Made by a program: the position numbers and the translations under genes. From positions 1 through 64,000 of the forward strand of contig JAHFCO010000002.1 of assembly GCA_023249475.1 (NCBI GenBank): a DNA stretch of 64,000 nucleotides, in the 5' to 3' direction. The stretch's first letter is position 1. Each line of letters opens with the position of its first letter. This DNA comes from Bacillota bacterium. Lineage in GTDB: Bacteria > Bacillota_I > Bacilli_A > Erysipelotrichales > Erysipelotrichaceae. A model generated the notes under the pieces. That model made no database searches and was not told where the DNA came from. It saw only the letters and a program-made list of their open reading frames with translations. Shown here piece by piece: positions 31,359-59,916 of this stretch.

Positions 31359-31380
31359 AGCGGGAAATCCCGCTCTTTTT
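31357..31380 (+). terminator. Rho-independent terminator after glgP
   Basis: AGAGCGGGA / TCCCGCTCT with an AA loop and five Ts. Confidence 0.85.
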
Positions 31381-31405
31381 CTTCTCTACACAAATCGCGA
31401 TTTAT

Positions 31406-31414
31406 TGGTATAAT
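31406..31414 (+). promoter_or_regulatory. extended -10 promoter of pulA
   Basis: TGGTATAAT, a TGn-extended consensus -10, 24 bases before the start; the -35 region is poor. Confidence 0.5.
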
Positions 31415-31438
31415 AGAAACGACAAAAAAGGTAAGCCG

Positions 31439-33878: not shown

Positions 33879-33907
33879 TTGACTCGGTGAAACGGAAAAT
33901 ATATAAT
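33879..33907 (+). promoter_or_regulatory. main promoter P2 of the sulfoquinovose operon
   Basis: TTGACT (33879-33884) and TATAAT (33902-33907) with a 17-base spacer, near-consensus. The spacer is almost filled by GGTGAAACGGAAAAT (33886-33900), making it a candidate operator for a regulator encoded outside the window. Confidence 0.75.
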
Positions 33908-34006: not shown

Positions 34007-34020
34007 TGTAAGCGCTAACA
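34007..34020 (+). promoter_or_regulatory. cre/LacI-type operator, copy 1
   Basis: TGTAAGCGCTAACA is palindromic and a full match to the cre consensus TGWNANCGNTNWCA; it lies about 100 bases downstream of the P2 -10 box. Confidence 0.65.
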
Positions 34021-34077: not shown

Positions 34078-34091
34078 TGTAAGCGCTAACA
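34078..34091 (+). promoter_or_regulatory. cre/LacI-type operator, copy 2, at the start codon
   Basis: The same TGTAAGCGCTAACA ends one base before the ATG of the first gene and separates it from the ribosome site AAAGGA. CcpA or another LacI-family protein bound here would act as a roadblock. Confidence 0.65.
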
Positions 34092-34092: not shown

Positions 34093-34770
34093 ATGAATGA
34101 AGTACTAGAGAACCTTCGGGTTAAGAACCCCCACATCCAAATCCATTCCGTACACGATCCTGAGTTTAGTCGATTTGGGGAAGTGTTGGACGTCAGTGAA
34201 TTTGGTGATTTGATCAGATATTTAGAGTTACACACAACGGTGCCTCGTGTGGGCAATGAGTATGTACCGCATCGGCCAGAATTGGGGGATATCATTTCCG
34301 GCATCTCCGTCATACACAACACCTTCGGGATGGTGCCGTTGGAATACGGCTACGTCAACGGGAACAACTCCAAACTCAATGCCCTTGAGTTCCACAAAAG
34401 TTCCGAAATCAATGTGTGTGTCACACCGCTTGTGTTACTGCTTGCGCATATAGAGGACATTGATGATTCGACAGTTCACTCCTCTAAAGTGACCGCGTTC
34501 TATATTCCCAAGAATACAGCAATCGAAGTGTATTCAACGACGTTGCACTTCTCTCCTTGTAAAGTAACCGATTCAGGGTTCAAATGCGCGGTCATTCTCC
34601 CTTATGGTACCAACATGGAATTTGTCAGTGCCAAAGGTAATCAAGGGAAATATAGTAAGTTTCTATTTAAGACAAACAAATGGCTGCTAAATCACCCGGA
34701 AAACACTCGAATGGTTGAACTCAATGCAATCAGCGCGATACATGGTGAAAACATTGAGATCTACTATTAA
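34093..34770 (+). CDS. DUF4867 family protein, first gene of the sulfoquinovose operon
   Basis: A 225-residue cytoplasmic protein. The middle part (FGMVPLEYGYVNGNNSKLNA, EFHKSSEINVCVTPLVLLL, FYIPKNTAIEVYSTTLHFSP, VILPYGTNMEFV) matches what I know of DUF4867, a cupin-like family of unknown function found near sugar genes in Firmicutes. Conserved His, Glu and a second His (EFHKSSE, TLHFSP) could bind a metal. Sulfoglycolysis clusters often include a mutarotase for sulfoquinovose, and none is otherwise present here, so a mutarotase or sugar-handling role is possible but speculative. The ATG at 34093 is an unusually long 15 bases from AAAGGA because an operator palindrome intervenes. Ten bases separate it from the next gene. 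Confidence 0.75.
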   Translation: MNEVLENLRVKNPHIQIHSVHDPEFSRFGEVLDVSEFGDLIRYLELHTTVPRVGNEYVPHRPELGDIISGISVIHNTFGMVPLEYGYVNGNNSKLNALEFHKSSEINVCVTPLVLLLAHIEDIDDSTVHSSKVTAFYIPKNTAIEVYSTTLHFSPCKVTDSGFKCAVILPYGTNMEFVSAKGNQGKYSKFLFKTNKWLLNHPENTRMVELNAISAIHGENIEIYY

Positions 34771-34780
34771 CGGAGGAAAT

Positions 34781-36802
34781 ATGTTAACACTTGAAAAGAA
34801 TAAAGATCGGTTGAGAGTGATGTTCAAAGATGAGTGCATCCTTGAACATTCAAGTGATCAACCGTTCGTTTTTGTTGGGCGAGGAAATGAAACCATTGAA
34901 AGCTATCGTGGCAACTATCAAATCGAAGACCGATTAGAGAGTCGGATTCCACTGACTGAAACACAGGTCATTGAAAACAGTTGCGTATTCTCAAGTCATG
35001 GCGTGTCTGTGACCGTTGAATTTCTCATTGTGAGTCAACGATTGACCATGAAATTCTCATGCAACAAAACCGACGTCAATCGCTTCTGGATTCGAATGAA
35101 AGCAGATGCAGGTGAAAAAGTATACGGGTGTGGAGAACAAGCCTCCTACTTCAACTTAAGAAACAGAAAATACCCGCTCTGGACCTCTGAGCCCGGCGTC
35201 GGGCGCGATAAATCATCATTGACTACATTCTATGCGGATAAAGTGGATAAGGCCGGTGGGGACTACTACACGACCTATTATCCGGAACCAACCTTCGTAT
35301 CCACCCGGAAATACTGGTTGCATGTGGAATCGACAGCCTATGCTGAGTTTGATTTTCGATCACCGAATTTTCATGAGCTGATGTTTTGGGAAGTTCCCTG
35401 TGAATTGACACTGAATTTTAGTGATAGTTACCTTGAGCTCTTGACTGACCTGACCGAGTTTACGGGACGACCGCCGATGCTGCCTGACTTCTTGCACGAT
35501 GGGATTATCCTGGGTGTTCAGGGCGGCATGGAAACCGTACGCAAATACAAAGACCTTGCGCTTGAAAATGGCATTAAAGTCAACGGCCTTTGGGTGCAAG
35601 ACTGGGTCGGACACCGCTTTACCACGTTTGGAAAGCGGTTGTACTGGAACTGGGTGCTCAATGAGAAACTATACCCCAATTTAAAGGACGAGATCGCTAA
35701 GCTCGATAAGGAAAACATCGCCTTTCTGACCTATATCTGCCCGTTTTTACTGGAAAACGAAACGCTGTTCAATGAGGCTAAATCGTTGGGATATCTTGCC
35801 CTTAATATTGAGGGGAATCCCTATCTCGAAGATTTTGGTGAATTCTATTGCGGTATTGTCGATCTGACAAATCCACAGGGATTCGAGTGGTATAAAAATG
35901 TGATTAAAAAGAATATTCTGTCCTTGGGGATCAAAGGTTGGATGGCGGACTTTGGGGAATATTTACCCATCGACTGTGTCTTGCATAACGGTGTCAGTGC
36001 GAAGATCATGCACAACGCCTGGCCGGTATTGTGGGCGAAGTGTAATTACGAAGCCGTTAAGGAAACCGGGAATTTGGGGAAAGTCTTCTACTTTATGCGA
36101 GCCGGTGGCTTTGGTTCGCAGAAGTACTGCACATCGATGTGGGCGGGAGATCAAAGCGTCAATTGGGAAACCCACGACGGCATTGCCTCCGTCATTCCAT
36201 CCGCACTATCCACCGGCATCATCGGAAACCCCTATACACATAGCGATATCGGCGGATATACCAGTTTGCACGGGAACATCCGAACCAAAGAGTTGTTCGA
36301 CCGCTGGTGTGAAATGAACATATTCTCCTCTTACATGAGAAGCCATGAAGGAAATCGCCCGAGTCAGAACTTCCAATTCTACAATGATGTGGATACCATG
36401 AAACACATGGCTCGATGCTCGAATATCAAAGTCGACCTGAAACCGTATTTTTTAAGTTTGGTTGAAGAGGCGACACGACATGGCTATCCGATGCAACGAC
36501 CATTGTTCTTGCATTATCCAGAAGACGAAAAAGTGTTTGATCTACAGTACGAATACCTTTTCGGACAGGATTTATTTGTCAAACCGATCGTCAGAGAGTC
36601 TCAGCTTTCTCAGACATGTTATCTACCATCCGATGCCTGGGTTCACTTATGGACAGGAGTAGAATTTGATGGTGGAGAGATCACGGTTGATGCGCCCATC
36701 GGATATCCGCCGGTGTTTTACCGAAAACGATCACCCTTCCGGACTTTATTTGAAGATATATATAAGAAGTATGGGAAAGGGGATAATCGATGGCAAAAGT
36801 GA
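34781..36802 (+). CDS. GH31 sulfoquinovosidase
   Basis: A 673-residue family 31 glycosidase, closely similar to E. coli YihQ, which frees sulfoquinovose (SQ) from glycosides such as sulfoquinovosyl glycerol. The nucleophile is D390 (GWMADFGEY) and the acid/base D457 (WAGDQ). The sulfonate-recognition residues known in YihQ (Q288, R301, W304, Y508) correspond at identical spacing to Q273 (VQDW), R286 and W289 (GKRLYWNW) and Y493 (SDIGGY). No signal peptide is seen, so it acts on imported glycosides. The ATG at 34781 follows GGAGG by 4-5 bases; an in-frame extension upstream overlaps the DUF4867 gene and is rejected. It overlaps the next gene by 13 bases. Confidence 0.93.
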   Translation: MLTLEKNKDRLRVMFKDECILEHSSDQPFVFVGRGNETIESYRGNYQIEDRLESRIPLTETQVIENSCVFSSHGVSVTVEFLIVSQRLTMKFSCNKTDVNRFWIRMKADAGEKVYGCGEQASYFNLRNRKYPLWTSEPGVGRDKSSLTTFYADKVDKAGGDYYTTYYPEPTFVSTRKYWLHVESTAYAEFDFRSPNFHELMFWEVPCELTLNFSDSYLELLTDLTEFTGRPPMLPDFLHDGIILGVQGGMETVRKYKDLALENGIKVNGLWVQDWVGHRFTTFGKRLYWNWVLNEKLYPNLKDEIAKLDKENIAFLTYICPFLLENETLFNEAKSLGYLALNIEGNPYLEDFGEFYCGIVDLTNPQGFEWYKNVIKKNILSLGIKGWMADFGEYLPIDCVLHNGVSAKIMHNAWPVLWAKCNYEAVKETGNLGKVFYFMRAGGFGSQKYCTSMWAGDQSVNWETHDGIASVIPSALSTGIIGNPYTHSDIGGYTSLHGNIRTKELFDRWCEMNIFSSYMRSHEGNRPSQNFQFYNDVDTMKHMARCSNIKVDLKPYFLSLVEEATRHGYPMQRPLFLHYPEDEKVFDLQYEYLFGQDLFVKPIVRESQLSQTCYLPSDAWVHLWTGVEFDGGEITVDAPIGYPPVFYRKRSPFRTLFEDIYKKYGKGDNRWQK

Positions 36803-37692
36803 AGAAGAAATTGCGTGGAGTGGAATTTAAACAAAAAATCGTTCCCTATATGTTCCTCGCGCCCAATTTGATCATATTTTCGATTTTCATCATTGTGCCG
36901 GCGCTCATCGGACTGTATTACTCATTCACAGACGTTACCCTGTTTACCTTCGACGGCTTCGATTTCATCGGATTGGAAAATTACATCAAACTGATCGACA
37001 ACGAGTACTTTGTCAAAGCCTTCGTGAATACGATAAAGCTTGTCATCGTCGTGGTTCCGATCATGTACGTGGCTTCCTTGACAATGGCCGTACTCATCGT
37101 GCAGCCGCTCAAAGCCAAAGGACTGTTTCGCGCCGTCTATTATTGGCCTGTCATGATATCCGCCATCGTCATCGGTATTATGTGGAATTGGATCTTGGCC
37201 GGGAACTTCAGTATTTTCAATGCAATCGCAAAGTCTCTTGGCATTCAGACGCTAAAGACACTCACAGACCCGACGTTTGCCTGGTGGTCCGTCGTCTTCG
37301 CACTCGTATGGTCAAGAGCGGGTTACTACATGATTATCTTTATGGCCGCCCTGCTGAGCATTCCAGTGCCTCTCTACGAAGCCGCCGATATCGACGGAGC
37401 TAGCAAGTTACAAAAATTCATGTACATCACCTATCCGTCCATTCGGCCGGCACGTCTGATGGTATTTATCTTGACGACCATGGAAATCTTCAAAGTATAT
37501 CCATTGGTCGTAACCTTGACCGGAGGCGGGCCGCACCGTGCTACCTATTTCACCGTTCAATACGTTTATGAAGTGGCATTTAAAGAATATCAAGTCGGAT
37601 CTGCCAGTGCGATGTCCATGGTCATGTTAATGATCGTCACCATCTTCACGGCAGTAAACTTCTTTTTGTCGAAAAGAGGTGAGAACGTATGA
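36790..37692 (+). CDS. ABC sugar importer permease (MsmF/UgpA-like), probable SQ or SQ-glycoside uptake
   Basis: A 300-residue binding-protein-dependent permease with about six membrane helices (first FLAPNLIIFSIFIIVPALIG). The EAA loop that contacts the ATPase is YEAADIDGASKLQKFMYITYPSI near 200. Together with the following permease and lipoprotein it forms a CUT1-type importer. It sits between the sulfoquinovosidase and the SQ isomerase, so SQ or its glycosides are the likely cargo. No ATPase gene accompanies it; the MsmX-like ATPase at 58.8 kb is the obvious partner. AAAGGGG precedes the ATG. Confidence 0.88.
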   Translation: MAKVKKKLRGVEFKQKIVPYMFLAPNLIIFSIFIIVPALIGLYYSFTDVTLFTFDGFDFIGLENYIKLIDNEYFVKAFVNTIKLVIVVVPIMYVASLTMAVLIVQPLKAKGLFRAVYYWPVMISAIVIGIMWNWILAGNFSIFNAIAKSLGIQTLKTLTDPTFAWWSVVFALVWSRAGYYMIIFMAALLSIPVPLYEAADIDGASKLQKFMYITYPSIRPARLMVFILTTMEIFKVYPLVVTLTGGGPHRATYFTVQYVYEVAFKEYQVGSASAMSMVMLMIVTIFTAVNFFLSKRGENV

Positions 37693-38504
37693 AAAAGGCC
37701 AGCCTCTCAACCTATATCCTTTCGATCGTGGTTTTTCTAATCTTCATACTCCCGGTCCTCTACATCATCTTCTCCGCCTTTAAACCATCATCCGAGCTGT
37801 TCTCCGCCAATCCGACGTTTATTCCCAAAGATTGGACTCTGGACAACTTCACCATCGCACTAAGCAAAGGCAACTTCTCGCTATATATCTTCAATACCTT
37901 CTTAGTGGCGATATCCAGCACGATCATCGCGGTCATCATTAACACCATGGCCGGATACGCATTATCCAAATTCCGCTTCAAAGGCGAGAATGTCATCATG
38001 TTATTGATACTGTCGACCATCATGTTGCCACTTGAAGTCATCATGGTCCCTATCTTCTCGGTTTTGCGGTTTTTCGGGCTGTACAACTCTTTATTGGCCT
38101 TGATCATACCCCCGGCCGCAACACCGACCGGTATATTCTTGATGAGACAATACTTATTGACCATTCCGGACGAAGTCATTCAAGCTGCCCGCATCGACGG
38201 TGCATCGGAATGGCGGATCTTCTGGAACATCATCTTACCCAACGCCAAACCAGCCATCGCCACCCTCGCCATCTTCTCATTTATGTGGCGTTGGAACGAC
38301 TACGTCTGGCCATTGATCGCAATCAACTCGCCAAAAAAATATACCCTTCAATTGGCGATCGCAAATTTCTCGGGTGAATTCGGGATCGACTACAACTCCG
38401 TCATCGCGATGAGTGCATTAGCCATGATTCCGATGCTCATCGTCTTCTTGATCTTCCAGCGTCAATTCGTTCAAGGAACGGTTGATAGCGGGATGAAGGG
38501 TTAA
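37689..38504 (+). CDS. ABC sugar importer permease (MsmG/UgpE-like), probable SQ or SQ-glycoside uptake
   Basis: A 271-residue permease, partner of the preceding one and overlapping it by four bases (ATGA). Six helices; the EAA loop is IQAARIDGASEWRIFWNIIL near 162-181. The N-terminal helix and PSSELFSANPTFIP are typical of MalG/MsmG-type subunits. Confidence 0.88.
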   Translation: MKKASLSTYILSIVVFLIFILPVLYIIFSAFKPSSELFSANPTFIPKDWTLDNFTIALSKGNFSLYIFNTFLVAISSTIIAVIINTMAGYALSKFRFKGENVIMLLILSTIMLPLEVIMVPIFSVLRFFGLYNSLLALIIPPAATPTGIFLMRQYLLTIPDEVIQAARIDGASEWRIFWNIILPNAKPAIATLAIFSFMWRWNDYVWPLIAINSPKKYTLQLAIANFSGEFGIDYNSVIAMSALAMIPMLIVFLIFQRQFVQGTVDSGMKG

Positions 38505-38552
38505 CAACACAGGTATTAATTAACATTAATATAAAAAGAAAGGGAGGATTTT

Positions 38553-39761
38553 ATGAAAAGAATACTTAGTCTACTCTTAGTCTTGTTCGTTATCTCCGGC
38601 TTTAGTGCTTGCGCTAAGCAAGAACCTAAAGAACTGCAAATGCTGTGGTGGAGCGACGGCACCGAAGGTGCGGTCATGCAAACATTGCTTACGGAATACG
38701 AAACGAAAACAGGCGTAAAAATTGAATTAGTCGTCATTCCTTACGCTGATTATGAAGCACGTTTGGCAACCATGATCAGTGGAGGAGAAGCTCCTGCACT
38801 CGCACGCGTCACAGAAGGACATCTGAATAACTTCAAAGGAAAAATCCAGAGTTTAAAAGGTGTCTATGACAGCACGGGATTCACCAACTTATTCTATAAT
38901 GATGCAAACGAAGTCATTTCACTGCCCATGGACATTACGGCCAACGGACTATTCATCAATGTCGATTTGATGGAAAAATACGGGGTGGACTATCCGAAAC
39001 CGGGCGAAGCCGTCTGGACATGGGACCAATTCGAAACCGAAGTAAATAAACTTCGTGCCGGTGTCGGTACCGATGTTAACTTCCCGGGCGTCTTTGATCC
39101 TCAAGCACACCGTTTTTTCCCGATGGTTTATCAACATGGAACAAAAATCTGGAAAACACCGTACACTGAAAGTAATTTGACTGGAACCGCAGCTGTCGAT
39201 GCATTGACGAAACTCGTCGGTTTCTATGAAAGTGGATTAATTGACGATGCCGTTTATGCCGGCACAACCGCCGCCTCTCTGTTTAGAACGGGAGCATACG
39301 GCTTCCATATGTCAGGCAACTGGAATGTCAGCAGCTATCAAGATTTGACATTTGACTGGACGGTCGTCCCGATGCCGAAAGAAACAAACCGCGCTACCAT
39401 TCTTGGTGGTAAGTCCATCGCAGCGTTTATGGACTCCAACGCCCCGAAAGAAGCCAAGAAATTCATTGCTTGGTTAGCTAAAGGCGAAAACCACGACAGA
39501 TATACCGGAGGAGTTCCTTACTTGACACCGCGTTTAGGCGCAGAAGTCGACTATGGAAACTTCAAAGATGAATATGCCGTATTCCTTGATGAAATCGCCG
39601 CCACCGATGCATCCTATGTTCAAGACTGGTTAACCCAAGTCATGGTTCCGGGAATGTATCCGATGATCAACGAAGCCATCCGTAAAGCTGTCGCTAAAGA
39701 AGCAACGCCGTTGGAAGCATTACAAGAACTAGAAACCAAACTCAAAGACGCCAAGAAATAA
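38553..39761 (+). CDS. solute-binding lipoprotein of the SQ importer
   Basis: A 402-residue extracellular binding lipoprotein. The signal MKRILSLLLVLFVISGF ends in the lipobox FSAC (Cys20). The family 1 sugar-binding fold is visible (LQMLWWSDGTEGAVMQTLL, YADYEARLATMISGGEAP, GKSIAAFMDSNAPKEAKKF). Specificity cannot be read from motifs I know; context points to SQ or sulfoquinovosyl glycerol. AGGGAGG lies 8 bases before the ATG, in a 48-base AT-rich gap after the permease. A stable hairpin follows the stop, probably to raise its mRNA level relative to the permeases. Confidence 0.85.
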   Translation: MKRILSLLLVLFVISGFSACAKQEPKELQMLWWSDGTEGAVMQTLLTEYETKTGVKIELVVIPYADYEARLATMISGGEAPALARVTEGHLNNFKGKIQSLKGVYDSTGFTNLFYNDANEVISLPMDITANGLFINVDLMEKYGVDYPKPGEAVWTWDQFETEVNKLRAGVGTDVNFPGVFDPQAHRFFPMVYQHGTKIWKTPYTESNLTGTAAVDALTKLVGFYESGLIDDAVYAGTTAASLFRTGAYGFHMSGNWNVSSYQDLTFDWTVVPMPKETNRATILGGKSIAAFMDSNAPKEAKKFIAWLAKGENHDRYTGGVPYLTPRLGAEVDYGNFKDEYAVFLDEIAATDASYVQDWLTQVMVPGMYPMINEAIRKAVAKEATPLEALQELETKLKDAKK

Positions 39762-39768
39762 TGCAACA

Positions 39769-39798
39769 CAGGGTGCTATACAAGTGTGTAGCACCCTG
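39769..39798 (+). other. intercistronic stability hairpin after the binding-protein gene
   Basis: CAGGGTGCTA / TAGCACCCTG with a 10-base loop and no T run. Such hairpins after binding-protein genes protect the upstream mRNA from 3' decay; partial termination is the alternative. Confidence 0.6.
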
Positions 39799-39821
39799 AT
39801 TCTTAAGAAAGCAGGACACAT

Positions 39822-41195
39822 ATGAAACCGTTTGAATGTCTATATGTACCGTTTGGTGTTCCGACATTTCACTTAGAATCCGCGCAAAAAGCATATGAGG
39901 ATTCAATCAGTTTGCTCAAGAGCGTTGACGAAACGATTACCGTCAGCAATGAAATGTTATTGTCCATTGAAACGCTACTTAAATATATCGATGGGAAAAA
40001 TCCCGATTTGGTGATCTTACAGAATGTAACCTTTGCCAACTCTGCTTATGCGACAGAAGTTTTGAAACGTATATCTGCACCCGTCTTGTTGTGGACGTTA
40101 CGTGAACCTGTCATTGATGGCGGAAGACTCAGACTTAACTCATTAACCGGAGCGTTCTCGGCAGGGTATGCCTACAAAGCGATGAGAAAAGATAAAATTT
40201 TCTACATTTATGGCTCACCAAGCGATGATAGCGTTCAAAACAGACTGAAAAAGATCATTCATGCTGCGAAGTTGAAACACGAAATGAAAAACGCTAATCT
40301 TCTGATGGTTGGACACACCCCGCAGGGATTCGGCTTTGGCCGTGCTTTGGATCTCGAAATGGCCTCGACCTTCGGCGTCAATCTTCTCGCCATTGAATCA
40401 CGAGAACTGACCAAGATTGCCCAGGAAATGAAGATCGAAGATGCAAAAAATGAAGAAAATGAAATTGGTCGGCGAATGGTCGGACTAGAAAATACCGCAA
40501 CCAAAAACCGTGTCGACTTTGTCAAACTATACAAAGCATATCAAGACTATATCGATAAAAATCAAATCAAAGCCATAGCTTCGCGCTGCTGGCCGGACTT
40601 CTTTACGGATTACGGAACCCCGGTATGCAGTGTGCTCGCCATGCTCAACGATCAAAACGTTGCGGCTGCCTGTGAAGCCGACGCTTATGGCGCATTGAGT
40701 ATGTATATCGGACAACAACTCTCAAAATCGCCAACCTATCTGGGTGATCCCGTCTCGATCGATGAAAAAGAAAACACCATTACGTTCTGGCATTGTGGAA
40801 CCGCTGCCTGCGGTTTGGCTAGAAAAGATACCGGTGCAGCCGTAGGTGTTCATCCCAATCGCAAAATCGGACCGACCATGGAGTTTGGGCTAAAGGAATG
40901 TAAAGAAGCCACGATTTTCCGAATCGGCCGTAAACCGGATGGGACCTTCAGATTTTTAATCCTCGATGGAAGAGTATTGGACAAGCCCCAACAATTCTTA
41001 GGAACCAGTGTCGTCGTCGAAGTGGAACCGAAAGTGAATCCGCTGATCACGAACATGGTGCAAGATGGATGGGAACCTCACTTTGTCGTTGTCTATGGGG
41101 ATATCAAGGAAGAACTGGAGATATTGGCTCAATTATTCGCATGTGAAGTAGTAAAATACGAAGGAGAAGAAAGATGGAAAAAAGAGCGTATCTAG
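39822..41195 (+). CDS. L-fucose/L-arabinose isomerase-like protein, predicted sulfoquinovose isomerase
   Basis: A 457-residue protein of the FucI/AraA isomerase superfamily: an N-terminal Rossmann-like part (NPDLVILQNVTFANSAYATE), then VGHTPQGFGFGRALDLEMAS, with C-terminal sugar isomerase features (CEADAYGALSMYIGQQL, FWHCGTAACGLA, MEFGLKECKEATIFRIG). Metal-ligand-type Glu and His are present (CEAD, FWHCG). In the sulfo-transaldolase pathway of Bacillus an isomerase of this superfamily converts SQ to 6-deoxy-6-sulfofructose; here it would feed the transketolase. It overlaps the next gene by 22 bases. L-sugar isomerase activity is the alternative, but no pentose or fucose genes are nearby. Confidence 0.8.
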   Translation: MKPFECLYVPFGVPTFHLESAQKAYEDSISLLKSVDETITVSNEMLLSIETLLKYIDGKNPDLVILQNVTFANSAYATEVLKRISAPVLLWTLREPVIDGGRLRLNSLTGAFSAGYAYKAMRKDKIFYIYGSPSDDSVQNRLKKIIHAAKLKHEMKNANLLMVGHTPQGFGFGRALDLEMASTFGVNLLAIESRELTKIAQEMKIEDAKNEENEIGRRMVGLENTATKNRVDFVKLYKAYQDYIDKNQIKAIASRCWPDFFTDYGTPVCSVLAMLNDQNVAAACEADAYGALSMYIGQQLSKSPTYLGDPVSIDEKENTITFWHCGTAACGLARKDTGAAVGVHPNRKIGPTMEFGLKECKEATIFRIGRKPDGTFRFLILDGRVLDKPQQFLGTSVVVEVEPKVNPLITNMVQDGWEPHFVVVYGDIKEELEILAQLFACEVVKYEGEERWKKERI

Positions 41196-41992
41196 AAGAA
41201 AAGGCGAAGGAAATCCGCCAAGAGACCTTGCGGTGCATCGGTACATTGGGCGTCGGTCATATCGGCGGAAGCCTGTCGATCGCCGATGTTTTGGCTGTAC
41301 TCTATTTTGAAAAAATGAACATCGACCCAAAGAATCCGGGCTTATTGAGCCGTGATCGTTTTGTTTTATCTAAAGGCCATGGTGGACCGGCTGTATATGC
41401 AACATTGGCCATCAAGGGGTACTTTGACAAGTCACTGCTATTGACACTCAATCAGTCAAACACCAACTTACCGAGTCATACCGATAAAAACAAGACCATC
41501 GGCGTCGATATGACCACCGGATCCTTGGGACAAGGATTCTCCGCTGCGGTAGGCATGGCCACTGCGGCTCAGTTGGATGGATCCCAATTAACGGTTTACG
41601 CAATCATCGGTGATGGCGAAAGCCAAGAAGGACAGATTTGGGAATCCGCCATGTTCGCCGGAAGCCGCGGACTGGACACATTGATCGCCTTCACCGACTA
41701 CAACAAATTACAAATCGACGGTGCCGTCAGCGATATCAACGATGTCGCCCCGCTCGACAAGAAATGGGAAGCATTCAACTGGCACGTACAAGTCATTGAC
41801 GGGCATGATGTGTTGGCCATTTCAGAAGCGATCGATCATGCTAAAGAAGTCAAAGGGAAACCTTCGATGATCATACTGAACACCATAAAAGGAAAAGGCG
41901 CTTTCTTCTGTGAAGGCCAAGCCGGCTCACACAATATGCCTGTAACCATGGAACAAGCGAACGAAGCGATTGCGAGGTTGGAAACAAAATGA
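41174..41992 (+). CDS. sqwG: transketolase, N-terminal (TPP-binding) subunit, predicted sulfoglycolytic
   Basis: A 272-residue split transketolase subunit. The TPP motif is GDGESQEGQIWESAMFAG with YNKLQIDG closing it; the conserved start LGVGHIGGSLSIADVLAVLYF and FVLSKGHGGPA are seen. With the next subunit it would move a two-carbon unit from 6-deoxy-6-sulfofructose to glyceraldehyde-3-P, giving xylulose-5-P and 4-deoxy-4-sulfoerythrose, and, after isomerisation, a second two-carbon unit leaving sulfoacetaldehyde. Split transketolases also serve ordinary pentose metabolism; the context decides here. The symbol follows the sulfo-TK nomenclature as I recall it. Confidence 0.85.
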   Translation: MEKRAYLEEKAKEIRQETLRCIGTLGVGHIGGSLSIADVLAVLYFEKMNIDPKNPGLLSRDRFVLSKGHGGPAVYATLAIKGYFDKSLLLTLNQSNTNLPSHTDKNKTIGVDMTTGSLGQGFSAAVGMATAAQLDGSQLTVYAIIGDGESQEGQIWESAMFAGSRGLDTLIAFTDYNKLQIDGAVSDINDVAPLDKKWEAFNWHVQVIDGHDVLAISEAIDHAKEVKGKPSMIILNTIKGKGAFFCEGQAGSHNMPVTMEQANEAIARLETK

Positions 41993-42936
41993 AATTACAC
42001 GATCGTCAATTAAGAGACATTTACGTAGATTTACTGATTGAAGCCGCAAAGAAGCATCCGAATCTGGTCATCGTTGAAGCTGACTTGATGAAAGCGGCGA
42101 AAACCACCGGTTTTGCGGAAGTGTTCCCTGAAAGAACCATCAATGTCGGTGTTGCCGAAGCCAATATGATCGGCGTCGCCGCCGGGTTAAGCAACATGGG
42201 AAAACTACCCTTCACGCACACCTTCACACCGTTTGCGACACGCCGCTGTTTTGACCAAGTCATGTTATCGGTCGCCTATGCCCAACTCAATGTCAAGATG
42301 GTGGGATCGGATCCGGGAATCATGGCTACATTAAATGGTGGCACGCACATGTCGTTGGAAGACGTCGGGATCATGAGAACCATTCCGACCATGACCATCT
42401 TTGAACCGGTCGATGGCGTACAGCTCGCCGGCATGTTTGATCAGATCATCGACCACTACGGTCCGGTATATATCCGACTTCTTCGTCAGGAATTTCCGTC
42501 AGTCTTCGCAGATGGAACACAATTCACCTTAGGCAAAGCGATCAAACTTGAAGAAGGAACCGACGTCAGCATCTTTGCGACGGGGATCATGGTGGTGGAA
42601 GCACTGGAAGCACGCAAGATCTTGGCCGAAGAAGGCATATCCGCGAGCGTCGTCAATATTCACACCGTGAAACCGATCGATCGAGAAGCGATTATTTCCG
42701 AGGCGAAGAAGACCCGGGCAATCGTCACCGCCGAAAACCATAACATCATCAATGGGTTGGGCAGTGCGGTCGCTGAAGTTTTGGTTGAAGAATATCCGGT
42801 CGTTATGGAACGCGTCGGAACCAAAGATCATTTCGGCGAAGTCGGTAAGAAAGACTTCTTGATGGAGAAATTCGGGCTCAAAGCACATAACATCGTCGAC
42901 GCCGTGCATCGTGTACTAGAAAGAAAAGGGAAGTAA
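41989..42936 (+). CDS. sqwH: transketolase, C-terminal (pyrimidine-binding) subunit, predicted sulfoglycolytic
   Basis: A 315-residue partner of the preceding subunit, overlapping it by four bases (ATGA). The catalytic Glu that activates TPP lies in NVGVAEANMIGVAAGL near residue 56; FTHTFTPFATRR and the transketolase C domain (VSIFATGIMVVEAL) follow. It completes a heterotetrameric transketolase. Confidence 0.85.
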   Translation: MKLHDRQLRDIYVDLLIEAAKKHPNLVIVEADLMKAAKTTGFAEVFPERTINVGVAEANMIGVAAGLSNMGKLPFTHTFTPFATRRCFDQVMLSVAYAQLNVKMVGSDPGIMATLNGGTHMSLEDVGIMRTIPTMTIFEPVDGVQLAGMFDQIIDHYGPVYIRLLRQEFPSVFADGTQFTLGKAIKLEEGTDVSIFATGIMVVEALEARKILAEEGISASVVNIHTVKPIDREAIISEAKKTRAIVTAENHNIINGLGSAVAEVLVEEYPVVMERVGTKDHFGEVGKKDFLMEKFGLKAHNIVDAVHRVLERKGK

Positions 42937-42937
42937 T

Positions 42938-43420
42938 ATGAAAAAAATCTTTATCGGCTCTGACAAATCCGGGTTTGCATTGAAAGAAGCCATTAAACAA
43001 TATTTACTTGGCGAAGCTTATGAAGTCGAGGACATCGGCACCACCGATGAAGAGAAACCTGCGCCTTTCTTCGAAGTTGCGCTTAAAGGCGCACTGAAAA
43101 TCCAATCCAAAGAATACACAAGAGGTATCTTGATTTGCGGAACCGGCATGGGCATGTCCATCGTCGCCAACAAACATGAAGGTGTCTTCGGGGCAGCCTG
43201 CGAATCCGTATATGCAGCCGAGAAATGCCGTGCCATCAATGACGCCAACATTCTATGTATGGGTGGATGGATCATTGCGCCGATCATGGGTGTCGAAATG
43301 ACCAAGACCTTCTTAAATACCGAATTTACCCAGAATCTTGAAGAATGGAGGGCCAAAAACTTAGTTAAGGCCAAGGAAGCCGTAGCCAAAATTGAAAAAG
43401 AAAGCTTTCATCGTCAGTAA
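42938..43420 (+). CDS. sqwI: RpiB/LacAB-family isomerase, predicted 4-deoxy-4-sulfoerythrose isomerase
   Basis: A 160-residue RpiB-fold aldose-ketose isomerase. The catalytic loop is intact: C67 in GILICGTGMGMSIVANK. Residues that ordinary RpiB enzymes use for ring opening and phosphate or sugar binding differ: His10 of the DH motif is K10 (GSDKSGFALK), the His of the HND motif is I100 (RAINDAN), and the Arg of GSRVVG is W111 (GGWIIA). A four-carbon sulfonated substrate has no hydroxyl with which to form a furanose ring, so loss of the ring-opening His fits the predicted role of converting 4-deoxy-4-sulfoerythrose to its ketose. It starts one base after the transketolase stop. Confidence 0.82.
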   Translation: MKKIFIGSDKSGFALKEAIKQYLLGEAYEVEDIGTTDEEKPAPFFEVALKGALKIQSKEYTRGILICGTGMGMSIVANKHEGVFGAACESVYAAEKCRAINDANILCMGGWIIAPIMGVEMTKTFLNTEFTQNLEEWRAKNLVKAKEAVAKIEKESFHRQ

Positions 43421-43432
43421 GAAGAAATATGT

Positions 43433-44674
43433 ATGATTGAAACAGTATCGCTACTGTCAATTTTAGTCGCAATTATCATTGGCATAGCCACGAGTATTAA
43501 CGTAGGGTTTATTGCACTGGTTTTTGCTTTCTTCCTAGGAACGACGCTAGGTGGATTAAGTCCCAACACGATCATTGGATTTTGGCCGCTAAACCTATTC
43601 TTCACCACGGTAGGAGTCACATTGTTTTTCAGTATCGCGAAAATCAACGGAACCCTTGAAAACCTGTCAACCATGATCATCTATCGTAGCAAGGGCAGTA
43701 AAGTCAAGATCCAGATTATTTTCTTTGTGCTATCATTGGGACTTGCTTCCATCGGACCTGGGAACATTTCTGCAGCGGCCCTGCTTTTACCCATTGGGCT
43801 AGCCATCGCCTATCAATCCAATATGTCCTTACTGTTGATGAGCGTCCTGATCATTCAGGGATCCATCGCCGGCGGATTGTCTCCCATTGCCCCCAATGGG
43901 ATCGTCGCCTTGGAACTGGCTCGACTAAACAATGTGGGAGAACTTGGAATCTCAATATACCTGTTAAATATGATCAGCATCATCATCTTCTCAACACTCT
44001 TTTTCCTAGCGATGAAAGGCTATCGGATGAATGGTCAGAAAACGGAAGTCACACCACCTTTACCCTTCACCTATGAACAAAAATTAACATTGCTTAGTAT
44101 TCTGATCTTGATTCTCTGGGTCGTCTTCGGGAAAGTCCACGTCGGTTTCGCTGGATTTACCCTCGCTGTCGGACTCTTCTTTCTCAAAGCCGGCAATCAA
44201 CAACAAGCCGTTCAAAACGTTCCGTGGACAACCATCCTACAAATTTGCGGAGCGGCCGTTTTGATCAGTGTTGTCGGTGAACTCGGCGGCATTCAATTGA
44301 TGACCGATTTTCTAGCAAAAATAACGAATGGCCAGACCGCGGTTTTCATCATATCGATTCTTTCCGGAACCATGGCGACCTTCGCTTCGGCGGTCGGCGT
44401 GGTCATGCCGACGCTGATACCTACGACCGTCGCCTTATCGGAAAGCTTGAACTTTGCGGTGAGCCCGGCAGTCCTGACGATGACCATCGCGGTCGCCTCG
44501 CATATGACCACCATGAGTCCGCTATCCGTCATGGGAGCCTTGGCTTTAGGCAGCTTACCCGCAGGAGTCGATGAGAAGAAGCTTTTCAAAAAAATGTATA
44601 TCGTAGCATTTATCGCCTTAGCCTTCGTGTCCACGTTCTTAGGACTGCTTCACCTGCTAGGCATCATAAAATAA
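43433..44674 (+). CDS. MatC/SLC13-like permease, predicted sulfoacetate exporter
   Basis: A 413-residue membrane protein with about eleven hydrophobic segments. The N-terminus (SLLSILVAIIIGIATSINVG, then LNLFFTTVGVTLFFSIAKI and IGPGNISAAALLLPIG) matches the MatC dicarboxylate carrier N-terminal family. Two GPGN/SPIAPNG-like re-entrant motifs and VGVVMPTLIPTTV in the second half are typical of ion-transporter folds. Placed between the isomerase and the sulfoacetaldehyde dehydrogenase, it most likely exports the end product sulfoacetate, which this operon cannot break down further. Import of an organosulfonate is the alternative. A weak GAAGAAA ribosome site precedes the ATG. Confidence 0.75.
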   Translation: MIETVSLLSILVAIIIGIATSINVGFIALVFAFFLGTTLGGLSPNTIIGFWPLNLFFTTVGVTLFFSIAKINGTLENLSTMIIYRSKGSKVKIQIIFFVLSLGLASIGPGNISAAALLLPIGLAIAYQSNMSLLLMSVLIIQGSIAGGLSPIAPNGIVALELARLNNVGELGISIYLLNMISIIIFSTLFFLAMKGYRMNGQKTEVTPPLPFTYEQKLTLLSILILILWVVFGKVHVGFAGFTLAVGLFFLKAGNQQQAVQNVPWTTILQICGAAVLISVVGELGGIQLMTDFLAKITNGQTAVFIISILSGTMATFASAVGVVMPTLIPTTVALSESLNFAVSPAVLTMTIAVASHMTTMSPLSVMGALALGSLPAGVDEKKLFKKMYIVAFIALAFVSTFLGLLHLLGIIK

Positions 44675-44684
44675 AGGAGAAAAT

Positions 44685-46094
44685 ATGAGTTCGAAAGAGT
44701 ATGTGTCGTCCTACGTAAAGAGGGCGAAAGCTGCGCAGAAACAAATCCAGTTTTACACCCAGGAACAAATCGATGAAGTTTGTGTAGCGATCGGTTGGGA
44801 AGTATACAATGATCAAAACATTGAAATACTGGCTAAACTTGCCGTCGAAGAAACGAAGATGGGAAATGTCCAGGACAAAATCACGAAACACAAAAACAAA
44901 GTGCTCGGTGTTTTAAAAGATGTCCAACATGCCAAGTCCGTGGGTTGCATTGAAGTGGATGAAGTAAAGAAAATCAGAAAATTCGCCAAACCGGTTGGCG
45001 TTGTCGGTGCATTGACTCCGGTAACCAATCCGACGGCGACCCCTGCCAGCAATGGGATCACGATACTAAAAGGCAGAAACGCCGTTATCTTTGCGCCGCA
45101 TCCGAGATCCAAAAAAGCGACGGCCATGGCCGTGCAGTTTATGAGAGACGGACTTCGCAAGGTCAACGCGCCGGAAGATCTCATCCAAGTCATCGATGAA
45201 CCCTCCATCGAAGTCACGGAAGAACTCATGAAACAAGTCGACGTCGTACTTGCGACCGGAGGCGGGGCGATGGTGAAAGCGGCATACTCATCCGGTAAAC
45301 CGGCCTATGGTGTCGGACCCGGCAATTCGGTATCCATCGTCGCCGAAGACGCCAATGTGAAAGACGCTGCCACGAAAATCATGGGCAGTAAAGCATTTGA
45401 TCATGCGACATCGTGTTCAAGTGAGAATTCCATCATCATTCATGAGTCGATTTATGACCAAATGATCGAGCAGTTGATTTCTCTGGGTGCCCACCTTGTT
45501 ACCGAAGACATGCGCGAACAGCTGTCGATGTACATGTGGCCCCTGAACGACAAAGGATATCGCTCGATCAACCCCAAAATCATCGCTCAGTCCGCACAGT
45601 CCATTGCTCAAGGAGCCATGTTGACGGTGAACGATTCTGTGAAAGTCTTGCTCGTTGAAGGGAGAGAAGATATCGAATCCGATTTTTTCTCTCAAGAAAA
45701 ACTGTCCCCCGTGTTGACGATCTTCAAGTATGCAACCTTTGAAGAAGGGTATCGCATTCTCGAAAGACTAACCGATAATTACGGGACAGGACATTCCTGT
45801 GGAATACACACCTTCAACGATGAGTATGTTAAGTATATCGGATCAAGAATCCGTAGTAGCCGGGTCCTTGTCAATCAGGCGCAAGCCGCAGGGAACGGGG
45901 GCGCATTCTTTAACGGCATGCCGTCGACCGTATCCTTGGGATGTGGCAGTTGGGGTGGAAACATCACCTCTGAAAATATCACGTACAAACATTTCATCAA
46001 TACGACCTGGGTTTCCGAATTCTTTCCGCCAGTCCGTCCGAGTGATGAAGAAATATTCGGAGCGTATTTCGCCAGCGGGAAGAAGGATCGCTGA
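44685..46094 (+). CDS. sqwD: CoA-acylating aldehyde dehydrogenase, predicted sulfoacetaldehyde dehydrogenase
   Basis: A 469-residue acylating aldehyde dehydrogenase of the EutE/PduP/AdhE-N/SauS group. The NAD-binding strand is VLATGGGAMVKAAYSSG, the catalytic residue C244 (DHATSCSSEN), and the C-terminus has LGCGSWGGNITSENITYKHF, also found in sulfoacetaldehyde dehydrogenases and AdhE. It would oxidise sulfoacetaldehyde to sulfoacetyl-CoA with NADH formation. Microcompartment shell genes and targeting peptides of EutE/PduP systems are absent. GGAG lies 7 bases before the ATG; the stop overlaps the next start (TGATG). Confidence 0.87.
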   Translation: MSSKEYVSSYVKRAKAAQKQIQFYTQEQIDEVCVAIGWEVYNDQNIEILAKLAVEETKMGNVQDKITKHKNKVLGVLKDVQHAKSVGCIEVDEVKKIRKFAKPVGVVGALTPVTNPTATPASNGITILKGRNAVIFAPHPRSKKATAMAVQFMRDGLRKVNAPEDLIQVIDEPSIEVTEELMKQVDVVLATGGGAMVKAAYSSGKPAYGVGPGNSVSIVAEDANVKDAATKIMGSKAFDHATSCSSENSIIIHESIYDQMIEQLISLGAHLVTEDMREQLSMYMWPLNDKGYRSINPKIIAQSAQSIAQGAMLTVNDSVKVLLVEGREDIESDFFSQEKLSPVLTIFKYATFEEGYRILERLTDNYGTGHSCGIHTFNDEYVKYIGSRIRSSRVLVNQAQAAGNGGAFFNGMPSTVSLGCGSWGGNITSENITYKHFINTTWVSEFFPPVRPSDEEIFGAYFASGKKDR

Positions 46095-47218
46095 TGAAAC
46101 TCTTTGAATATCAAGTAAAGGACTTGTTTAAAAACGCGGGGATCGCTGTTCCGAAAAGCCAATTGATTCATCGTGTCGATCAGGCGGCTGAAGCGTTTGC
46201 TTTAATCGGGTTCCCCTGTGTTATCAAGTCACAGGTGTTGAGTGGCGGCCGTGGCAAAGCCGGATTGATTCAGTTTGTAAAAAACGAGGGGAAAGGGATG
46301 GAAGAAGTCACCCGTCTCTTTGCCCTGCCTCTAAAAATATCATCCCTACTCATCGAAGAAGCCGTGGATATTGCCCATGAAGTCTATGCTTCATTTACGA
46401 TTGATCCACTCAGTGGTTCAGCCCTATCCATCGTCAGCGCTACGGGCGGGGTCGATATTGAAACGTTGGCCATTGAACAACCACACAAGATCCTTCAGAC
46501 AAAAATCGATATGAACCTCGGGTTACAAGCGTATCAAGCCAACCACATCGCTTATGAATGTGGATTTGATCCTGAAATAGCTAAGAAATTCACGCAGTTA
46601 CTGCTTAAACTGTATCGTCTGTTTGTTCAATATGATTGTGAGTTATTGGAAATCAACCCGCTTTTTATCACCAACTCAAACGAGTTGGTTGCCGGGGATG
46701 GGAAGTGTTCGATCGATGACAACTCCATGTTTCGACACGAAGACATTTCCGTGCCGCTGGGGGACATTGAAAACGAAGCGGAGCGCTTGGCGGCGGAAGA
46801 AGGCATACCGTTTATTCAGTTTGATGGCGACATCAGTTTGATGTGCGCAGGCGCCGGACTGACCACGACCGTTTACGACTTGGTTCACTATGAAGGTGGA
46901 ACGATTGCGAATTATCTGGAATTTGGCGGACCTCACTATAAAAAAGCGATGAAAGCCATGGAAATCTGTTTGAAAGTTCCGTCGAAAGTCATCTTGATCG
47001 TGACCTTTGGAACGATCGCCCGTGCCGATGTCATGGCACAAGGCATCGTTGAAGCCATCGGTAAATTAAAACCGGATCGTCCGATCGTGACGTGTATCCG
47101 TGGAACCAATGAAGTTGAAGCTGTCGAAATTCTGCGAAAAGCCGGATTGAATCCGCTTTTTGATACGGAAGAAGCGGTTCGCTTGGCGGTTGCCTTAGCG
47201 AAGGAGACGAAGATATGA
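46094..47218 (+). CDS. sqwL: ADP-forming CoA ligase, beta (SucC-like) subunit, predicted sulfoacetate-CoA ligase
   Basis: A 374-residue SucC-type subunit: the ATP-grasp domain (FEYQVKDLFKNAGIAVP, IKSQVLSGGRGKAGLI, ELLEINPLFI) and the ligase/CoA domain (ANYLEFGGPHY, IVTFGTIARADVMAQGI). With the alpha subunit it would turn sulfoacetyl-CoA, ADP and phosphate into sulfoacetate, CoA and ATP. A housekeeping succinyl-CoA synthetase is less likely, since no TCA genes adjoin and the four preceding steps match. Codon use is more AT-rich than the rest of the window. Which letter (K or L) belongs to which subunit is from memory. Confidence 0.82.
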   Translation: MKLFEYQVKDLFKNAGIAVPKSQLIHRVDQAAEAFALIGFPCVIKSQVLSGGRGKAGLIQFVKNEGKGMEEVTRLFALPLKISSLLIEEAVDIAHEVYASFTIDPLSGSALSIVSATGGVDIETLAIEQPHKILQTKIDMNLGLQAYQANHIAYECGFDPEIAKKFTQLLLKLYRLFVQYDCELLEINPLFITNSNELVAGDGKCSIDDNSMFRHEDISVPLGDIENEAERLAAEEGIPFIQFDGDISLMCAGAGLTTTVYDLVHYEGGTIANYLEFGGPHYKKAMKAMEICLKVPSKVILIVTFGTIARADVMAQGIVEAIGKLKPDRPIVTCIRGTNEVEAVEILRKAGLNPLFDTEEAVRLAVALAKETKI

Positions 47219-48111
47219 GTATTTTCATCGATCGAAGCACACGCGTTTTGGTTCAGGGAATCACCGGCTCAGAGGGTAGCTTTTGGACAAAGCACATGAT
47301 CGATTTGGGGACCCAGGTCATCTGTGGCGTTACTCCCGCAAAAGAGGGTCAAACCATCCATGATATACCGGTTTATCATTCGGTCGAAAGGGCATTAAGA
47401 AATCATGAAGTCGATGCCTCCATGATCTTCGTCCCCCCGAAACTCACGAAAGACGCCGTATTCGAAGCGCTTGCCAACGGAATCAAGAAGATCGTTACGA
47501 TGGCTGACGGCATACCGCTTTTCGATATGGTTGCCATACGCCATGCGGCACTCGAGCATAATGCACTGGTCATCGGCGGAAACACCTCCGGAGTCATATC
47601 GCCGGAAGAAGCGATGATGGGCAGTTTCCCCTACTGGATCCAACGCGTATATAAACGCGGGAATATCGGAGTCATGACACGCAGCGGTTCATTGACCAAC
47701 GAAGTGACCGGGATGATCGTAAAACAAGGATACGGTGTTTCGACGCTTATCGGTGTCGGTGGAGATCCGGTTCCCGCAACCAGATTTGCGGAAATGCTAC
47801 CCTATTACCAGCAGGATGAACAAACCGAAGCCGTGGTCATCATCGGCGAGCTCGGCGGGACGATGGAAGAAGAGGTAGCGGAGGCGATGGAAAAAGGGAT
47901 TTTCACCAAACCCTTGGTCGCATTTCTCGGGGGTAGAACGGCTCCCAAAGGACAGAAGATGGGCCATGCCGGCGCGATCATCACAGGTGGTAAAGGCGCT
48001 GTGGAAGATAAAATCGAAGCGTTGACGAAGGCCGGAGCCTTGGTTGCGGATCGTCCAAGCAATGTCGGGATATTGTTGGAACAGTTAAACGTACCTAAAA
48101 AATTGTCGTAG
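47215..48111 (+). CDS. sqwK: ADP-forming CoA ligase, alpha (SucD-like) subunit, predicted sulfoacetate-CoA ligase
   Basis: A 298-residue SucD-type subunit, overlapping the beta gene by four bases. CoA-binding domain VLVQGITGSEGSFWTKHM near residue 12, ligase domain VGGDPVPATRF and IGELGGTMEEE, and the phosphorylated histidine H251 in KMGHAGAIITGGKGA. It is the last gene of the thirteen-gene operon. Confidence 0.85.
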   Translation: MSIFIDRSTRVLVQGITGSEGSFWTKHMIDLGTQVICGVTPAKEGQTIHDIPVYHSVERALRNHEVDASMIFVPPKLTKDAVFEALANGIKKIVTMADGIPLFDMVAIRHAALEHNALVIGGNTSGVISPEEAMMGSFPYWIQRVYKRGNIGVMTRSGSLTNEVTGMIVKQGYGVSTLIGVGGDPVPATRFAEMLPYYQQDEQTEAVVIIGELGGTMEEEVAEAMEKGIFTKPLVAFLGGRTAPKGQKMGHAGAIITGGKGAVEDKIEALTKAGALVADRPSNVGILLEQLNVPKKLS

Positions 48112-49908: not shown

Positions 49909-49924
49909 GGGTCACCTCGCCGAT

Positions 49925-49953
49925 ATTTTGAACCACCTTGAAGGAAATGTCAA
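49925..49953 (-). promoter_or_regulatory. promoter of the neopullulanase gene
   Basis: Minus-strand TTGACA (49953-49948) and CAAAAT (49930-49925), 17-base spacer. Confidence 0.65.
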
Positions 49954-49992
49954 CCGACTTCCCTGCGAAAAGGGTTTCTGAGGGAATCATGA

Positions 49993-50006
49993 TGTAAACG
50001 CTTACC
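49993..50006 (+). promoter_or_regulatory. cre/LacI-type operator between divergent maltodextrin genes
   Basis: TGTAAACGCTTACC matches the cre consensus except at the last base. It lies 7 bases before the malF -35 box and can influence both directions; a MalR-like LacI regulator is equally possible. Confidence 0.6.
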
Positions 50007-50013
50007 ATAACCC

Positions 50014-50042
50014 TTGAAGAATGACAAGAATCATGGCACAAT
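50014..50042 (+). promoter_or_regulatory. promoter of malF
   Basis: TTGAAG (50014-50019) and CACAAT (50037-50042), 17-base spacer, 19 bases before the ATG. Confidence 0.5.
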
Positions 50043-50061
50043 AGCAACAGGAGGGTATATT

Positions 50062-51624: not shown

Positions 51625-51627
51625 GCC

Positions 51628-52500: not shown

Positions 52501-52520
52501 GCGCGAAGATTCGCGCTTAT
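52497..52520 (+). other. perfect hairpin spanning the malG stop codon
   Basis: ATAAGCGCGAA / TTCGCGCTTAT, 11-bp arms with a two-base spacer, no T run. It may modulate the mRNA between malG and the DUF1189 gene. Confidence 0.55.
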
Positions 52521-52536
52521 CTTACGAGGAGGACCT

Positions 52537-53355: not shown

Positions 53356-53368
53356 AAGTTTCGTGAAG

Positions 53369-53405
53369 TGTAACCGTTTACAAACAATTTACCAAGTGCT
53401 ATACT
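53369..53405 (+). promoter_or_regulatory. malE promoter with overlapping cre site
   Basis: TTTACA (53377-53382) and TATACT (53400-53405), 17-base spacer. The palindrome TGTAACCGTTTACA (53369-53382) is a full cre match and contains the -35 box, so a bound repressor would block RNA polymerase. Confidence 0.75.
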
Positions 53406-53449
53406 TAAGACGACTTCTGAAAAGAAGAACACAGGAGGAATGTTTCAAA

Positions 53450-54847: not shown

Positions 54848-54872
54848 TCCGTAGAGACAACTGAAACACCGT

Positions 54873-54904: not shown

Positions 54905-54921
54905 CAAGGGAGAAACGACAC

Positions 54922-58194: not shown

Positions 58195-58197
58195 GCG

Positions 58198-58824: not shown

Positions 58825-59916
58825 ATGGCAAACCTAAAGCTAAAAGATATCAATAAAATCTACGACAACAATGTCCAAGCCGTTTTCGATTTCAATCTCG
58901 ACATCAAAGATCGTGAATTCATCGTATTGGTCGGTCCGTCGGGTTGTGGGAAGTCCACGACGCTGCGTATGATCGCCGGTTTGGAAGACATTACTTCCGG
59001 TGAACTGTACATCGACGAAAAACTCGTCAATACGGTCGCTCCGAAAGACCGCGACATCGCGATGGTTTTCCAATCCTATGCCTTGTATCCGCATATGAGC
59101 GTCTATGAAAACATGGCGTTCGGTTTAAAACTGAAGAAGATGCCGAAAGATGAAATCGATACCCGCGTCAAAGAAGCCGCGCGTATCCTTGAAATCGAAA
59201 AATACCTGGATCGTAAACCCAAGGCGCTGTCCGGCGGTCAACGTCAACGTGTCGCTTTAGGCCGTGCCATCGTCCGTAACGCGAAAGTATTCTTGATGGA
59301 CGAACCTCTGTCGAACCTGGATGCGAAACTGCGTGTGCAGATGCGTTCCGAAATCATCAAATTGCATGAACGTCTCAATGCGACGACCATCTACGTCACC
59401 CATGACCAGACCGAAGCGATGACCATGGCGTCCCGCATCGTCGTCATGAAAGACGGCTACATCCAACAGATCGGTACGCCGAAAGACATCTACAACCACC
59501 CCAACAATATGTTCGTCGCGAACTTCATCGGCGCCCCCGCCATGAACTTCATCAACGGCGTCTATCGCGACGGTCGTTTCGAAGTCAACAACAAGTCCTT
59601 CAAAGTCCCGGGCATGTTCCATGATCGCCTGAAGAACTACAACGGCAAGGATCTGGTCCTTGGGATCCGTCCTGAAGACATCCACTACGAAGGCATCGTC
59701 GCCGAAGCCTTCCCGGAAACCCCCTTCGATTTCAACGTCGATGTTTGCGAATTGCTCGGTCATGAATTCATCCTTCACGGAGAATTCGGCGGACAGAAGA
59801 TCTTGGCGAAGGTTTCCTCCCGTGTCGACGTCCATGCCCATGAAACGATCCAACTTTCGATGGACGTGGCGAAACTCCACTTCTTCGATAAAGAAACGAC
59901 CCAATCCATTTATTAA
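58825..59916 (+). CDS. ABC transporter ATPase, MsmX/MalK type
   Basis: A 363-residue sugar-importer ATPase: Walker [19 protein letters not shown]-loop [11 protein letters not shown], signature [14 protein letters not shown], Walker [13 protein letters not shown], switch His in [11 protein letters not shown], then a regulatory TOBE/OB domain. In Gram-positive bacteria one such ATPase often serves several CUT1 importers. Both sugar importers in this window lack an ATPase, so it likely energises the maltodextrin and the sulfoquinovose systems. GAGGTGA precedes the ATG. Confidence 0.93.

Follow-up and report, generated by a model that had tools for sequence, protein, structure and literature searches.

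The window analysed here, a stretch of 64,000 nucleotides from the draft genome of an Erysipelotrichaceae bacterium (2.09 Mb, 60 contigs), carries 13 contiguous genes between positions 34093 and 48111. Judged from their sequences, these genes very probably form a complete sulfo-transketolase (sulfo-TK) operon of the oxidative variant, in which the plant sulfosugar sulfoquinovose (SQ) is broken down to sulfoacetate. All 13 lie on the + strand with open reading frames and tight packing (intergenic gaps of -22 to +60 bases), and most starts are preceded by what appears by eye to be a purine-rich, ribosome-site-like sequence. Their order runs from a DUF4867 gene and a glycoside hydrolase family 31 (GH31) gene through two ABC permeases, a binding protein, a FucI-type isomerase, two transketolase halves, an RpiB-like protein and a MatC-type carrier to a dehydrogenase and two ligase subunits. 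Pfam searches covered every one of the 13 proteins and NCBIfam searches 10, leaving aside the two permeases and the MatC-type carrier; both accord with the gene calls of the original prediction, an earlier reading of the same DNA that had described thirteen contiguous genes here. The C2 sulfonates made from SQ feed sulfide-releasing bacteria, and SQ itself is one of nature's most abundant organosulfur compounds (PMC12890257; this and the other PMC papers are cited from excerpts throughout).

The second gene (34781..36802, + strand) encodes a GH31 protein identified as a sulfoquinovosidase (SQase) of the YihQ/SftG type by its match to solved SQases and its pocket residues. Its start was placed at the ATG at 34781, which follows GGAGGAAAT, in preference to the TTG at 34715 in the mechanical list of open reading frames. 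Against solved chains, the six best matches score 691-844 bits, and the next GH31 protein scores 151 bits. In an alignment to chain 5AED (E. coli YihQ), residues Q273, R286, W289, Y493, D390 and D457 correspond to YihQ Q288, R301, W304, Y508, D405 and D472, with identity at all six positions. We take Q288, R301, W304 and Y508 to form the sulfonate pocket of YihQ and D472 to be the catalytic Asp partner. The protein is thus a predicted sulfoquinovosidase with a YihQ-like pocket and catalytic Asp pair. Asp405 of YihQ is called catalytic in PMC11968277, which also names 6PNR, 5OHT and 5OHY as sulfoquinovosidases; 8R56, another of the solved relatives, is listed merely as family 31.

The first gene of the operon (34093..34770, + strand) encodes a DUF4867 cupin metalloprotein of the SqvB/SftX type (PF16161, 7.9e-65) that matches the solved B. 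megaterium structure 9GYY at 1.3e-53. Its Glu99, His101, Glu105 and His152 fit the metal ligands Glu97, His99, Glu103 and His150 (PMC11968277), a correspondence drawn from the motif (Glu-x-His-x3-Glu plus His) and the constant spacing rather than from a residue alignment. Clusters of the sulfo-EMP2, sulfo-TAL and sulfo-TK types usually include DUF4867 (PMC9594981, PMC11968277), and under the name SftX it is found in isethionate-making sulfo-TK clusters of the rumen (PMC13219744). Ring opening has been proposed as its role (PMC9594981). According to the excerpted text of PMC11968277, some pathways lack DUF4867, and the protein did not accelerate mutarotation of SQ or sulfofructose (SF), although nickel could not be tried. 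The protein is a candidate ring-opening or mutarotation helper.

The enzymes of carbon chain cleavage follow the importer genes. The isomerase gene (39822..41195, + strand) is assigned to the SqvD/SftI type, which would convert SQ to SF; SQ isomerase SftI is its sole NCBIfam match (NF048012, 2.6e-120; 402 bits against a cut-off of 700), its Pfam match to PF02952 (9.2e-06) scores 25.8 against a cut-off of 29.3, and the solved structures hold no sequence relative of it at E 0.001. SqwG (41174..41992, + strand; PF00456, 1.2e-54) is the N-terminal, thiamine diphosphate-binding half of a transketolase, with a GDG motif at residue 146, and SqwH (41989..42936, + strand; PF02779, PF02780) is the C-terminal half. 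SqwI (42938..43420, + strand; PF02502, 6.7e-42) is an RpiB-like protein, the predicted sulfoerythrose isomerase. A split transketolase in adjacent genes and an RpiB-like SqwI are among the features expected of sulfo-TK, and Pfam finds both in the cluster.

The end of the operon encodes the oxidative branch. SqwD (44685..46094, + strand; PF00171), the predicted CoA-acylating sulfoacetaldehyde dehydrogenase, has SauS as its best NCBIfam match (NF047625, 1.2e-154), at 516 bits against a cut-off of 600. SqwK (46094..47218, + strand; PF08442, PF00549) is the beta-type subunit of an ADP-forming acyl-CoA ligase and resembles the succinate-CoA ligase beta subunit (312 bits against a cut-off of 370). 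SqwL (47215..48111, + strand; PF02629, PF00549, PF13607) is the alpha-type subunit, matching the succinate-CoA ligase alpha subunit at 326 bits against a cut-off of 336. A GHAG motif in SqwL starts at residue 250, and its His 251 is presumably the residue that is phosphorylated. Reduction of sulfoacetaldehyde would call for a SqwF-type reductase, and no PF00465 match occurs among the 13 operon proteins, to which the search was limited. What marks the sulfoacetate variant is therefore found in the cluster: a SauS-like SqwD (below cut-off) and both ligase subunits are present, and PF00465 is absent. The original prediction had also stated that the kinase, aldolase and other enzymes of alternative SQ pathways were missing, along with an isethionate-forming reductase. 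This is borne out, since Pfam finds no SF kinase, aldolase, transaldolase, dehydratase, monooxygenase or iron-containing alcohol dehydrogenase among the 13 proteins.

Transport is represented by four genes on the + strand. Two ABC importer permeases (36790..37692 and 37689..38504, both PF00528) and an extracellular solute-binding protein (38553..39761; PF13416, PF01547) belong to an importer, and a MatC-type carrier (43433..44674; PF07158, 1.9e-30; PF03600, 2.2e-17) is the probable sulfoacetate exporter. In the proposed mechanism, the ABC system would import SQ or an SQ glycoside, SQase would free SQ, with DUF4867 probably assisting ring opening, and the SqvD-type isomerase would yield SF. SqwGH would then make two successive C2 transfers to glyceraldehyde-3-phosphate, with SqwI isomerising sulfoerythrose in between, to give two xylulose-5-phosphate and sulfoacetaldehyde. 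SqwD would oxidise sulfoacetaldehyde to sulfoacetyl-CoA, SqwKL would convert this to sulfoacetate and ATP, and the MatC-type carrier would pass sulfoacetate out of the cell. Gene content, gene order, conservation and the SQase residues come from the present analysis, and the substrates and reaction directions are taken from the published pathway. The roles given to the exporter, the ATPase partner and the regulator are proposals made here alone.

An oxidative sulfo-TK variant was suggested early from gene clusters (PMC9594981), and recombinant-enzyme work in Acholeplasma sp. (Chu et al. 2023, Appl Environ Microbiol 89:e0061723) described the set SqvD-SqwGH-SqwI-SqwD-SqwKL, with sulfoacetate as product and ATP formation (PMC12890257, PMC11659671). 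The original prediction had pointed to such a variant from an Acholeplasma, correctly. The window operon shares SqwGH, SqwI, SqwD and SqwKL, along with a predicted SqvD, with this system, which is known here from citing papers, and differs in its Erysipelotrichaceae-type host; the variant is described in Spirochaetes, Firmicutes and Tenericutes (PMC12890257). Clostridium sp. MSTE9, whose sulfo-TK pathway leads to isethionate (Liu et al. 2021), has SqwGH, SqwI and, by prediction, the isomerase in common with the window (PMC12890257, PMC11659671), whereas the window operon lacks a SqwF-type reductase and its sulfoacetaldehyde would be oxidised rather than reduced. The sulfoacetate-producing pathway has already been published and reviewed, and the interpretation, although supported, describes nothing new: the operon is a further member of the published pathway and leaves that pathway unchanged. 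It adds an operon-complete, conserved example for Erysipelotrichaceae-type bacteria, together with three smaller points, namely a split between carriers, a difference in regulators and a conserved operator-like site.

A search of a genome collection, which may leave out the window's own record, returned 28 SqwD-type loci. SqwK lies beside SqwD in 16 of them (L003-L018) and does not in 12 (L019-L030; several short). Gene counts refer to the stretch examined around each SqwD, and several loci end early. The closest SqwD relatives come from metagenome-assembled genomes (MAGs) titled as Erysipelotrichaceae, at 99% (L003) and 97% (L004) identity, which points to an Erysipelotrichaceae-type host. 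G001, a same-genus genome with a 99% identical SqwD, corresponds to the assembly of L003. Among the 16 SqwD-SqwK loci, SqwG and SqwH occur in 13 and SqwI in 12. In the Acholeplasmataceae MAG UBA6190 (L010), the 12 genes from SQase to SqwL follow the window's order at 56-79% identity, and DUF4867 is 47% identical. The only DUF4867 match in that genome (G060:C20:2971-3633) precedes the SQase match by about 50 bases if the contig is that of L010, so the gene most likely sits just upstream of SQase there. One difference is that two GntR/UTRA genes follow SqwL in L010 and none is found in the window operon. Related genomes keep the same gene order, which makes a chance arrangement untenable.

The original prediction had singled out the DUF4867-first order and the MatC-like exporter for comparison. 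In the comparison, DUF4867 is usual in such clusters, and the MatC-type gene holds the same position in L010. A tail of DUF4867 precedes SQase in L003, L004, L006 and L007, and each of the six genomes searched has one DUF4867 match, with coordinates consistent with a position just upstream of SQase. The order was accordingly rejected as a novelty.

Several observations weigh against the proposed operon function or limit it. The best NCBIfam matches of the isomerase, SqwD, SqwK and SqwL all fall below curated cut-offs, and the names given to these proteins consequently rest on best match together with operon context. No ABC ATPase occurs among the 13 operon proteins by Pfam, which leaves the import set incomplete within the operon; the earlier claim of a gene for every step therefore stands for the enzymes and the exporter, each step having a matching gene, and fails in part for import. 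Of the 16 loci with SqwK beside SqwD, just eight have an SqvD match, which in L015 is at 26%, and several of the rest end early. Two loci, L012 and L014, have no SqwG, SqwH or SqwI match in 21 kb, and SqwDKL may thus not always accompany the transketolase route. In both, SqwD, SqwK, SqwL, a carrier and an SQase-like gene stand together; SqwGHI may be encoded elsewhere, or another route may lead to sulfoacetaldehyde.

Two alternatives concern the direction or the purpose of the enzymes. SqwDKL might run in reverse, turning imported sulfoacetate into sulfoacetaldehyde in the manner of SauCD and SauS from Bilophila wadsworthia. The two systems are alike in pairing an acylating sulfoacetaldehyde dehydrogenase with an ADP-forming ligase, the best NCBIfam match of SqwD is SauS itself, and the Bilophila enzymes run the same chemistry backwards, toward sulfoacetate breakdown (PMC12890257). 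Yet in the window the SqwDKL genes are packed into a single operon together with those for SQase, isomerase and transketolase, relatives keep this gene order, and the sulfolyase and glycyl radical enzyme families are unmatched among the 13 genes; reversal is therefore very improbable. The operon might otherwise serve ordinary sugars, with GH31 as an alpha-glucosidase, transketolase and the RpiB-like protein in the pentose phosphate pathway, and SqwD and SqwKL making acetyl- or succinyl-CoA. The enzyme families are broad, several scores lie under the cut-offs of sulfonate-specific models, and the surrounding window is rich in alpha-amylase-family genes. However, the GH31 protein scores far above the next GH31 against six solved chains that include 6PNR, the YihQ chain and 5OHY, it keeps the sulfonate-pocket residues, and the isomerase has SQ isomerase as its sole NCBIfam match. 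On the SQase scores and the sulfonate pocket, an ordinary glucosidase operon is very improbable and was rejected, and this explanation is the least credible of those considered. Sulfoacetate production from SQ remains the preferred account.

A further alternative concerns the MatC-type carrier, which might import SQ or another anion while sulfoacetate leaves through another protein. The families it matches are named for organic-anion carriers, and the sequence does not reveal which way transport runs, but the operon already has an ABC importer. The related loci also bear on this point. The MatC-type gene lies 5' of SqwD in nine of the 16 SqwD-SqwK loci (L003-L010 and L018). The loci L011-L017, spirochaete and clostridial by record title, resemble the window in SqwD (62-65% identity), SqwK (50-60%) and SqwL (67-74%), but all seven carry a sodium:sulfate-symporter-type protein of 482-487 residues directly 3' of SqwL, and no MatC match occurs there at E 1e-8. 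When one pair was compared, the two carrier types showed no significant similarity to each other, although both match the broad CitMHS family. That a different anion carrier directly follows SqwL in these seven loci suggests that the carrier belongs to the SqwDKL module. Import by the MatC-type protein is thus unlikely, and export of sulfoacetate is the probable role. Two different carrier families are indicated for the final step of the pathway, the one that has been studied least. None of the open-licence PMC papers pairs sulfoquinovose with MatC; one of them mentions a sulfoacetate exporter, and one each brings sulfoacetate or sulfoquinovose together with Erysipelotrichaceae.

Upstream of the operon, a probable sigma-70-type promoter (TTGACT-17-TATAAT; 33879..33907, + strand) agrees with the consensus at 11 of 12 positions and, judged by eye, is kept in each of three related upstream regions (L052, L053 and L054). 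The promoter scan overall gave 18 sites, fewer than in shuffles (mean 23.7), and promoters and terminators taken together showed no excess over them. An operator-like sequence, TGTAAGCGCTAACA, occurs twice on the + strand, and its conservation was compared across the window and the same three regions. Copy 1 (34007..34020) is present in two of the four regions (the window and L052, but not L053 or L054), and copy 2 (34078..34091), directly 5' of the first start codon, has the same sequence and position in all four. With up to two mismatches, five matches are found in the window against 0.13 expected, these being one site at 50705 and two places that each count once per strand. With up to one mismatch, the 2.09 Mb genome holds three sites, one beyond the operon pair, and the reversed-pattern control gave 0.

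The 13-gene operon contains no regulator gene, whereas ROK-family regulator genes occur in six of the seven loci L011-L017 (the exception being the short L016), and L018 carries a weaker ROK-type match. The LacI family has four matches in the genome, none within the window. As a putative site, TGTAAGCGCTAACA fits the consensus of a catabolite-response element, or else an operator for a LacI-family protein encoded elsewhere. The chances are about even for the combined proposal that the MatC-type protein is a dedicated sulfoacetate exporter, replacing the sodium:sulfate-symporter-type carrier in Erysipelotrichaceae and Acholeplasmataceae, and that an unlinked LacI-family protein switches the operon through TGTAAGCGCTAACA.

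The motor of the importer may be supplied from the surroundings. The operon sits amid starch and glycogen genes (28956-33577 and 48223-61244): upstream are glycogen-phosphorylase-like and pullulanase-like frames, named by eye, and downstream are four alpha-amylase-family proteins, an ABC permease and a MalK-like ABC ATPase (58825..59916, + strand; PF00005, PF17912, PF08402). The sole OB_MalK match found in the genome, at 59530-59682, falls inside this last gene, amid alpha-amylase-family genes, and the ATPase is a candidate shared motor that may serve both importers.

The xylulose-5-phosphate formed would most likely enter the non-oxidative pentose phosphate pathway, as no convincing phosphoketolase was found and the genome has, elsewhere, frames for a transketolase (685 residues) and a transaldolase-family protein (215 residues). 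A phosphoketolase outlet was considered and rejected: of the only two XFP_N matches in the genome, neither convincing, one is SqwG itself, which together with its neighbours reaches 24.5 bits where the cut-off is 23.7, and the other, below cut-off, is a second transketolase N-half on contig C8. The latter, of the split-transketolase type (G000:C8:71021-71758; 284-residue frame), lies away from the operon. NADH from SqwD could pass to a 910-residue frame at C52:10150, which its length and match suggest to be aldehyde-alcohol-dehydrogenase-like.

Some related loci carry further genes of interest. In L019-L023, from five Bacillota or Clostridia MAGs, three of them titled rumen or omasum, SqwD-like dehydrogenases of 44-45% identity occur, and neither SqwK nor SqwL is matched at E 1e-8 within the stretch examined. 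A genome of the same family (L035; G013:C19:15443-16738) encodes a 41% SqwD-like dehydrogenase followed by SqwK-like (31%) and SqwL-like (40%) proteins, enzymes that perhaps act on another acyl-CoA. Four relatives have another GH31-type gene (L006:14951, L007:14950, L008:7840 and L018:14913-16859) that shares 38% identity with SQase and is found a few kb beyond SqwL, where the window has an alpha-amylase gene; in L018 this second GH31-type gene is preceded by an MFS_2-type sugar transporter and followed by a weak ROK-type regulator.

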